From Streptomyces humicola (GTDB lineage: Bacteria > Actinomycetota > Actinomycetes > Streptomycetales > Streptomycetaceae): a stretch of DNA of 64,000 nucleotides. How positions within the stretch are numbered: position 1 is the stretch's first letter; every line of letters begins with the position of its first letter. Shown here one piece after another: positions 10,310-41,184 of this stretch. The stretch is from assembly GCF_024436035.1 (NCBI RefSeq), contig NZ_JANFNG010000031.1, positions 1-64,000 on the forward strand, in the 5' to 3' direction. The position numbers were made by a program, and so were the translations under genes. The notes below the pieces were generated by a model. The model was given only the letters and a program-made list of their open reading frames with translations. It was not told the origin of the DNA and searched no databases.

Positions 10310-10909
10310 TCAGACCGCGGCGCGCTCGCGGCCGGACGGGAACGGGTCCAGCGCTCCGGTCTGGGCGAGGGACTTGGTGAGCGCGAGGCTGCCGAGCCCG
10401 GCGACGACGGCGGAGCTGACGACCACGATCGCGGCGTAGATCAGCTGCCAGGCGGTCGAGTTGGAGGCGTAGTAGAGCGCGTTGTCGAGCAGCGAGGCCG
10501 CCACTCCCGCGAGCGCCCCTCCCGCGACGGCGGTCGGCCAGCGCCACACCCGGTAGCCGGTGAAGGCGAAGCCGAACTCGCCCGCCATGCCCTGCAGCAC
10601 CCCGTAGAGCAGGGTGACCAGGCCCCACGGCGAACCGAAGAGGGTGGCGACGGAGGCGGCCACCAGTTCGCAGAAGATGCCGGCTCCCGGCTTGCGTATG
10701 ACGAGGGGGCCGAGGACGGCCGGGATGAGCCAGACACCGTAGATCACGGCGCGCCCGGGCAGCGGGATGACGCTCGCGGCGCCGTCCCACAGGGCGTTCC
10801 ACGCCCAGAAGATGACGCCGAACGCGGCGCCGATGACGGCCGCGACGACGATGTCGACAGTTCTCCACCGGTTGGCGGACGTGGCTGTGCTCTGCGAATT
10901 GGCCTGCAT
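10310..10909 (-). CDS. ykoE: ECF transporter S component, YkoE family (thiamine/HMP)
   Basis: A 199-aa substrate-binding membrane subunit with six predicted helices. It matches the YkoE family in the opening helix (VVAAVIGAAFGVIFWAWNALWD) and in the conserved GLVTLLYGVLQGMAGEFGFAF segment. YkoE proteins bind thiamine or its pyrimidine precursor. The gene begins 7 bp after the TPP aptamer, and its ribosome site GGGAG lies inside the aptamer's 3' strand, so translation should fall when thiamine pyrophosphate is abundant. It is followed after 16 bp by the fused ATPase. Confidence 0.9.
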   Translation of the reverse strand: MQANSQSTATSANRWRTVDIVVAAVIGAAFGVIFWAWNALWDGAASVIPLPGRAVIYGVWLIPAVLGPLVIRKPGAGIFCELVAASVATLFGSPWGLVTLLYGVLQGMAGEFGFAFTGYRVWRWPTAVAGGALAGVAASLLDNALYYASNSTAWQLIYAAIVVVSSAVVAGLGSLALTKSLAQTGALDPFPSGRERAAV

Positions 10910-10915
10910 GGCCGA

Positions 10916-11002
10916 ACTCCCTACGCCGGTACGAGCCGGATCAGGTTCGAGGGTCTGCGGCCCCGGGCCGCACTCTCAGCGCTTCGCGCGCTCCCCTGTC
11001 GG
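10916..11002 (-). promoter_or_regulatory. TPP (thi-box) riboswitch
   Basis: Read on the minus strand, the conserved thi-box parts follow in order: CAGGGGAGC near the 5' end, GCTGAGAGTGCGG, CCGCAGACCCTCGAACCTGA, TCCGGCT and TACCGGCGTAGGGAG at the 3' end. The ribosome site of ykoE (10922-10917) is the last part of the aptamer and there is no terminator hairpin. This fits control of translation initiation rather than of termination. Confidence 0.95.
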
Positions 11003-11060
11003 ACTGTATATTTGTGCGAATCTACGATATCAGCGGGCTGCAAATCCCTGGCGGGCGGTC

Positions 11061-40094: not shown

Positions 40095-40140
40095 GGGAGC
40101 GAATCGGACCCCCCTTTTGTCCGGTTCGCTCCCTTTTTCT
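40095..40140 (+). terminator. Intrinsic terminator of the pdh operon
   Basis: A 15-bp stem (40095-40109 with 40119-40133, one G-U pair) followed by TTTTTCTTTT. It is one of the few in this window with a clear U-tract. Confidence 0.93.
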
Positions 40141-40290
40141 TTTGCCGTGCAATTCGGACATATAGCGCTTCATGCTACACACGCCGAGCACCGGATACGT
40201 CACCATGTGTCGATTCCATGGGTTTATCCGTGTGACGCCGAACATAGGACCTACATCACTTACGTACCTGCTTAGTAGACTTATGCGGCG

Positions 40291-40410
40291 CTAACAGGCC
40301 CGCCCGGAAGGGCGTTGGCCAGGGGCGGAGGTCCCCCCGCCCAACTAGTCGGGATAGTAAATAGGGCGATTGCCGACGCAATTCCCGGAAGCTAAGAATG
40401 TGCGGGCCGC
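40291..40410 (+). ncRNA. Structured leader RNA upstream of the transglycosylase (possible riboswitch)
   Basis: The 413-bp gap after pdhC (40082-40494) has its right half highly folded. GGCCCGC 40297-40303 pairs with GCGGGCC 40402-40408, enclosing about 98 nt. Inside are GGGCGG/CCGCCC (40323-40328 with 40337-40342) and ATTGC-CGAC-GCAAT. CGCCC-GGAA-GGGCG at 40301-40314 is an alternative hairpin to the outer helix. CGCTAACA near the 5' side and GAAGCTAAG near the 3' side are unpaired blocks resembling, loosely, ydaO/c-di-AMP riboswitch parts. Many Streptomyces cell-wall hydrolase genes carry such a leader. The class is not certain. Confidence 0.45.
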
Positions 40411-40494
40411 AGGGCGCCGCATGGCGAGAATGCAGCGCAATTCGCCGAGGGGGACCGGCACTGCGGGCAAAGCAAATCGGAGAGGTCCGCACCC

Positions 40495-41184
40495 ATGCCC
40501 ATTCCTGCCGTCAACCGCCTGACCCGGACGCACGTGATCACCGCGAGCGGCGCCATCGCCGCCGGTGCCGTCGCCCTGGCCTGCACGGTCGTTCCCGGGT
40601 CGGCACAGGCCTCGAACGCCCCGGCGCGCACGCCGGTCGCGCACACCGTCACCAAGCCCACGCCGTCCACCGCCGCGCCGGCCAAGCCGGCCCCCGCGCA
40701 GCCCGCTGCCGCGAAGGCCGCCCCCGTGAAGGCCGCGCCCGCGAAGCCCCAGGCCCCGGCTGCCAGGCCCGCCCGGCACGACCACCCCAGGGGCGCGGCG
40801 GCCACCAGGCCGACCGACATCAACGTGGCCCCCGTCGCCTACTCGGCCCCGGCCGTCTCCTACCCGGACGACCTGGACGGCTGGATCCGCCACGCGCTCG
40901 CGATCATGCAGCAGAACGGCATCCCGGGCACCTATGACGGCATTTACCGCAACATCATGCGTGAGTCGTCCGGCAACCCGTACGCCGAGAACGACTGGGA
41001 CTCCAACGCCGCAGCCGGCACCCCCTCCAAGGGCCTGCTGCAGGTCATCCAGCCGACGTTCGACGAGTACCACGTCTCCGGCACGGCCTGGGACCTGTTC
41101 GACCCGGTCGCCAACATCACTGCGGCGTGCAACTACGCGTACCACGTGTACGGTTCGATCGACAACGTCTACTCGGCGTACTGA
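40495..41184 (+). CDS. Secreted transglycosylase-SLT domain protein
   Basis: A 229-aa exported protein. A signal peptide (VITASGAIAAGAVALACTVV then GSAQASN) is followed by a low-complexity linker of about 70 residues rich in alanine, proline and lysine. The C-terminal 100 residues are a lysozyme-like SLT domain with the catalytic Glu in NIMRESSGNPYAEND, then SKGLLQVIQPTFDEYHV and CNYAYHVYGSIDNVYSAY. It should cut peptidoglycan glycan strands during growth or spore germination. GGAGAGG lies 10 bp before the ATG. A long structured leader precedes it. Confidence 0.88.
   Translation: MPIPAVNRLTRTHVITASGAIAAGAVALACTVVPGSAQASNAPARTPVAHTVTKPTPSTAAPAKPAPAQPAAAKAAPVKAAPAKPQAPAARPARHDHPRGAAATRPTDINVAPVAYSAPAVSYPDDLDGWIRHALAIMQQNGIPGTYDGIYRNIMRESSGNPYAENDWDSNAAAGTPSKGLLQVIQPTFDEYHVSGTAWDLFDPVANITAACNYAYHVYGSIDNVYSAY

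Follow-up and report, generated by a model that had tools for sequence, protein, structure and literature searches.

A predicted three-way-junction leader RNA, covarying and apparently undescribed, before SLT-type wall hydrolase genes of Streptomycetaceae

In Streptomyces humicola, a gene encoding an SLT-domain (lytic transglycosylase) wall hydrolase is preceded by a short structured RNA which, as comparison with its relatives establishes, belongs to a family whose stems covary, whose copies can be several to a genome, and which is tied to SLT-type genes. The gene lies at positions 40495 to 41184 (+ strand) of the window, by which we mean the whole 64,000-nt stretch of contig NZ_JANFNG010000031.1 that was analyzed, and its product of 229 amino acids matches Pfam PF01464 (E = 1.1e-8) and has a signal-peptide-like N terminus, as expected of a secreted enzyme. 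We lean toward reading positions 40406 to 40494 as the 5′ untranslated region (UTR) of this gene and as an apparently undescribed Streptomycetaceae RNA family that would regulate the hydrolase in cis once transcription has started. An initial annotation had drawn a folded leader over positions 40245 to 40494. A folded leader is indeed present before the gene, with strong covariation over ~40406 to 40494, but the fold drawn over the longer span was unsupported.

Predicted structure and covariation of the leader RNA

The putative 5′ UTR of ~89 nt (~40406 to 40494) is predicted to form a three-way junction with its core at 40407 to 40466 (+ strand, as for all elements of the leader). The outer stem, P1, pairs 40407 to 40412 (CCGCAG) with 40461 to 40466 (CTGCGG). 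Within it, P2 pairs 40414 to 40420 (GCGCCGC) with 40432 to 40438 (GCAGCGC), with one C-A mismatch and a loop at 40421 to 40431, and P3 pairs 40444 to 40447 (GCCG) with 40456 to 40459 (CGGC) around the loop AGGGGGAC. The junction is followed by a Shine-Dalgarno sequence, GGAGAGG (40479 to 40485; consensus GGAAGAGG), which lies 9 nt 5′ of the ATG and is conserved in the alignment.

An alignment of ten sequences (A2) was too conserved for covariation to show, and the search for relatives was therefore widened. The resulting alignment of 61 distinct sequences has 87.4% of its cells paired, with changes on both sides in 12 of the 17 pairs. Cells with both-sided changes number 83, versus 30 in shuffles, and every version of the slid controls drops to ~27 to 53% paired. 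Since kinship can mimic covariation, we also used a tree-based null, in which the substitutions of each column were simulated along the inferred tree at that column's own rate. This test returned 12 compensatory double-change events, compared with a mean of 1.07 and a maximum of 5 under the null (0/1,000). The earlier set of 47 sequences gave 10 events versus 0.96 in the same test (0/1,000), and an alignment of 47 distinct sequences made by MAFFT from sequence only gave 5 versus 0.64 (1/1,000). Only 2 of the 17 pairs pass singly in an R-scape-like per-pair test because each pair changes rarely; given its low power, the whole-structure tree test was used instead.

P1 occurs as the independent pairs CCGCAG/CTGCGG, CGTTGC/GCAACG (L053), GTCGCAC/GTGCGAC (L055), GAGTCGCA/TGCGACTC (L047), and GTCGCC/GGCGAC (L083), P2 as CCGC/GCGG, GCGCCGCG/CGCGGCGC, and GCACC/GGTGC, and P3 as GCCG/CGGC and TCACC/GGTGA. 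P1 is broken in two members, L043 and L044. Few unpaired positions are strictly conserved, and those that stand out are limited to the P2 loop (CGARA-like) and the Shine-Dalgarno sequence. Some members are open up to the start codon, and we considered whether the conserved UTR might be coding sequence; this was rejected, since length differences are not multiples of three and the stems covary.

In the window copy, seven contiguous pairs between TGCGGGC (40462 to 40468) and GTCCGCA (40485 to 40491) can form an alternative helix, here called helix C. It takes most of the 3′ strand of P1, and thus excludes P1, and it encloses the Shine-Dalgarno sequence directly before the AUG. Of the 25 window-type members, 12 have helix C with at least 6 contiguous pairs, a pairing absent from all 38 others, and alignment A2 holds one double change within the helix. 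As a family-wide switch it was rejected, being confined to the window-type clade, and the switching step is therefore no trait of the family. ViennaRNA assigns the window copy a pair probability of ~0.007 for P1 and ~0.22 for helix C, and the minimum free energy structure is a third fold. Since P1 of the window copy is not favored in this prediction, the stem, if formed at all, may depend on a partner or on folding during transcription. Alternatively, this copy, in which P2 carries a C-A mismatch, may be one of the weak members of the family.

Predicted promoter and DNA boxes upstream of the RNA

Searches with the leader DNA found paralogous leaders within the window's own genome, and searches with the protein added orthologs from records of Streptantibioticus, Actinacidiphila, and Streptomyces. 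Once aligned, these relatives split the stretch of the initial annotation into upstream DNA elements and downstream RNA, and positions 40245 to 40400 are evidently promoter/operator DNA. The first DNA box (40231 to 40278, + strand), TGTGA-N7-CATAGGACC ... TCACTTACGTACCTGCTTAGTAG, lies far upstream in nearly all members, with the consensus TGTGA-N7-CATAGGAC...TCACTTACGAAGCNNNNTAGTGG among relatives. The second (40344 to 40359, + strand), ACTAGTCGGGATAGTA, is an imperfect palindrome with the consensus ACKAAGCNGCTTAGTA, ~10 bp 5′ of the −35 element in the alignments. Both boxes share ACGAAGC-NNNN-TAGT and occur upstream of nearly all family members. Allowing up to 3 mismatches, the box 1 pattern has five sites in the window's own genome, and four of them, including 40256 to 40278, neighbor SLT genes on their contigs. 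The genes that carry the boxes look like a small dedicated regulon.

Downstream of the boxes, the element at 40370 to 40399 reads as a vegetative sigma-70-type promoter. Its −35 hexamer, TTGCCG (40370 to 40375, + strand), is conserved as TTGNCN, with a 17-bp spacer in 47 of 52 aligned members, and its −10 element, TAAGAAT (40393 to 40399, + strand), is conserved as TANNAAT. The full pattern, TTGNCN-N17-TANNAAT, is present in 50 of the 52, 2 to 5 nt 5′ of the RNA model. From promoter spacing, transcription is predicted to start at ~40406, and the fixed spacing places P1 at the predicted 5′ end of the mRNA. Since this promoter lies inside the stretch that had been folded, transcripts from it probably lack the first ~160 nt, and with the predicted start at ~40406, only just short of the position (40410) beyond which a start would by the initial annotation's own criterion refute it, the 5′ half of the original fold would be lost.

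Other features of that fold fared no better. At 250 nt it was barely more stable than chance (z = −1.46; 15 of 200 shuffles equally good). Its closing long-range helix of 7 bp, AGGACCT (40246 to 40252) with AGGTCC (40484 to 40489), can be drawn, but just two of the 48 relatives have its 6-bp register; over all of them, the longest match between the two strands averages 4.23 bp, versus 4.17 bp with swapped partners. We rejected this helix, as its true strands had no advantage over swapped ones. Of two blocks regarded as unpaired, GAAGCTAAG (40388 to 40396) overlaps the −10 element, and CGCTAACA (40290 to 40297) falls within a nonconserved stretch of variable length between the two promoter boxes.

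Boxes and promoter are also kept in three orthologs that lack the three-way junction (L013, L018, and L024, SLT genes of Actinacidiphila and Streptomyces), and the promoter of these orthologs has a better −35 element, TTGACC. Two of the three have a short UTR in which the strand after the promoter is complementary to the strand before the AUG, leaving the Shine-Dalgarno sequence in a hairpin loop; in L013, this hairpin is CTCGGGT...ACCCGAG. On the far side of the boxes, a long inverted repeat that is rich in G and C and has T-runs after it (40095 to 40145) lies 3′ of the preceding dehydrogenase E2 gene. It was missed by a simple terminator scan because of its 9-nt loop and is a probable terminator insulating the SLT gene, whose mRNA is best explained as a single-gene transcript.

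Distribution and association with SLT-type genes

We searched 298 Streptomycetaceae genomes for the element with covariance models built from increasing numbers of members. R1, built from 10 sequences with three helices, detected it in 23 genomes from 6 of 17 genera, R2, from 27 sequences, in 30 genomes from 7 genera, and R3, from 49 sequences, in 36 genomes. In an order-wide sample, matches of R3 were confined to two genera, the window's own and g9, which we take to be Streptomyces given how many of the sampled genomes it accounts for, and in a class-wide sample of 247 genomes, R2 gave no match beyond the window's genome. By R3, the window's genome has five copies, as does one genome of genus g9, and another reaches the maximum of eight.

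Association with SLT-type genes is nearly complete. Of the 63 copies used, 62 adjoin the start of such a gene, and the single exception (L071) is ended by a contig edge. Of the additional R3 matches, 14 from outside the training set were retrieved, and all 14 end exactly at an SLT-type start codon, as the training matches do apart from L071; in 11 of them the gene product is strongly related to the window protein by BLAST, and the other 3 precede genes of the L061 type (PF01464). In two genomes the element and its SLT gene have expanded locally: L063, L064, and L065 belong to the five-copy genome of genus g9, and L066 to L069 and L080 to L082 belong to the eight-copy genome. Some copies in these expansions are in tandem, 1.7 kb apart, and one is at a contig end. 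Judged from sequence, the expansions are recent joint duplications of leader and gene.

Candidate functions and relation to known RNAs

The leader combines conserved, covarying structure with a constant position before one gene class, both general traits of structured cis-regulatory 5′ UTRs. P1 begins at or beside the predicted first transcribed base, and the 3′ side of the RNA runs into the ribosome-binding site. Such a leader would set hydrolase expression in cis, acting at the 5′ terminus or on the initiation of translation, while transcription would be controlled separately through the upstream boxes. In the window clade, the choice would be between P1, which closes the 5′ end and leaves the region before the AUG free, and helix C, which encloses the Shine-Dalgarno sequence, and a ligand, a protein, or a condition would tip this balance. 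A closed stem at the 5′ terminus would also shield the mRNA from 5′-dependent decay. Control of translation through the P1/helix C choice is likely in the window's clade, for which we favor it, rather than across the whole family.

The leader may, more doubtfully than the general reading above, be a riboswitch of a new class, in which a small molecule, such as a metabolite of the wall or a nucleotide messenger, would bind the junction and decide between P1 and a form that occludes the ribosome-binding site or terminates transcription. Its position, size, and three-way junction would suit such a role, as would the mutually exclusive pairing in one clade and a wall hydrolase regulon that resembles that of the c-di-AMP riboswitch. 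However, invariant unpaired bases are fewer than a ligand aptamer usually has, the alternative pairings vary among clades, and the element is found at SLT-type genes only, whereas a riboswitch often governs several gene types. We hold a similarly tentative view of the broader proposal that Streptomycetaceae have here a new riboswitch class (or a protein-sensed switch), a minimal three-way junction at the 5′ end that would sense a cell-wall or nucleotide signal and control SLT transglycosylases alongside the c-di-AMP riboswitch of the same genomes.

A serious rival, although one to which we likewise give the smaller share of belief, is that the leader senses nothing and acts as a 5′ stabilizer of the mRNA or as an element of translation geometry, with the closed 5′ stem blocking 5′-dependent RNases and the ribosome-binding site left open. 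P1 starts where transcription is predicted to start, pairing in the stems is conserved while the loops are little conserved, and the alternative pairings are not conserved, all of which would fit a stabilizer. On the other hand, a simple hairpin would be sufficient for this purpose and a covarying three-way junction exceeds the need; moreover, the orthologs L013, L018, and L024 manage without the junction.

Attenuation of transcription is unlikely. P2 and a U-run would here form an intrinsic terminator, with P1/P3 or a downstream GCGCC strand as antiterminator. Several Streptomyces members do read GCGCCG...CGGCGC-UUUUUU, at least four U's fall within the 6 nt after P2 in 27 of 63 members, and in the U-run members a downstream GCGCC offers the 3′ arm of P2 a second partner. 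The window copy instead has AAUUC at this place, most members have no U-run, and a simple terminator scan of the window was negative at the element. P2 plus U-run was consequently rejected as a general terminator, since the combination is not conserved.

The proposal that the whole of 40245 to 40494 is a divergent c-di-AMP riboswitch (ydaO-yuaA, RF00379) occupies the same functional niche, and a paralogous SLT gene in the same genome has a true RF00379 leader, but we regard it as very improbable, since RF00379 has no match at the leader or in 19 relatives of the element, a promoter lies within the stretch, and the long-range helix is not conserved. The search with the RF00379 model, which the initial annotation had called for, left the leader unmatched at the gathering score and at E ≤ 10 with permissive filters, and the 19 relatives unmatched at E ≤ 1. 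As a positive control, the same model found five copies above its cutoff elsewhere in the window's genome and one weaker copy; the genes that follow these copies, among those scanned with Pfam, encode an M23 peptidase, an NlpC/P60 protein, an Rpf-like transglycosylase with LysM, and an SLT protein. The last is the paralog (L002, C15), in which a true c-di-AMP riboswitch lies directly 5′ of the start codon and the SLT domain is 81% identical to that of the window protein. Two paralogous hydrolases of one genome therefore have unrelated RNA leaders. The two RNAs are alike in being 5′ leaders of secreted wall hydrolase genes in Streptomycetaceae, but the architecture is not common to both: the RNA described here is a three-way junction of ~60 nt and RF00379 is a model of 134 positions, with no similarity in sequence or model.

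The fallback offered by the initial annotation, another RNA class, has held up in the form of a shorter and different RNA beginning at ~40406. Rfam 15 scans of the window, the leader, and the 19 relatives returned no family at the element, and the weak matches were due to chance or lay elsewhere. In the passages covered from a survey of motifs in 50 genomes, Streptomyces is the source of the dauA, livJ, pntA, and asfR motifs and Streptococcus that of a YjbJ motif, and none of those described there is at a Streptomyces SLT gene (PMC11109978). The dauA motif, described there as a riboswitch candidate, is a three-stem junction that includes the Shine-Dalgarno sequence (PMC11109978); it is like our element in having a three-stem junction next to that sequence and in its narrow distribution in Streptomyces, but its gene encodes a STAS protein and not a wall enzyme, a distinction drawn from its description. 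The YjbJ motif likewise precedes a predicted lytic transglycosylase gene, but it is described there from Streptococcus only, as a pair of hairpins lying ~30 nt 5′ of the Shine-Dalgarno sequence (PMC11109978). Transglycosylases are not mentioned in a survey of 104 RNAs (PMC2864571). A search of the literature, which covered subscription journals in part, found no description of such an element. We therefore file the element, apparently undescribed, as a new family of cis-regulatory structured leaders and not as a riboswitch.

Streptomycetes must meter their wall-cutting enzymes in germination, branching, and sporulation. In the literature covered, the c-di-AMP riboswitch was the sole RNA control found described for these enzymes; it controls rpfA in S. 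coelicolor and S. venezuelae and is also present at other hydrolases (PMC10117811). A second, unrelated leader dedicated to SLT genes, present in as many as eight copies in one genome and in genomes that have the first as well, would mean that paralogous hydrolases respond to distinct RNA signals, and the covariance model makes the question of control testable at once.

Two other riboswitch matches were observed in the course of these scans. In L042, a sub-threshold cobalamin riboswitch match (2447 to 2626, − strand; 26.1 bits versus a cutoff of 31.5) lies just 3′ of the SLT gene on the opposite strand. Within the window itself, the Rfam scan identified a TPP riboswitch (RF00059) at 10900 to 11007 (− strand; 63.5 bits), an ordinary member of its family.
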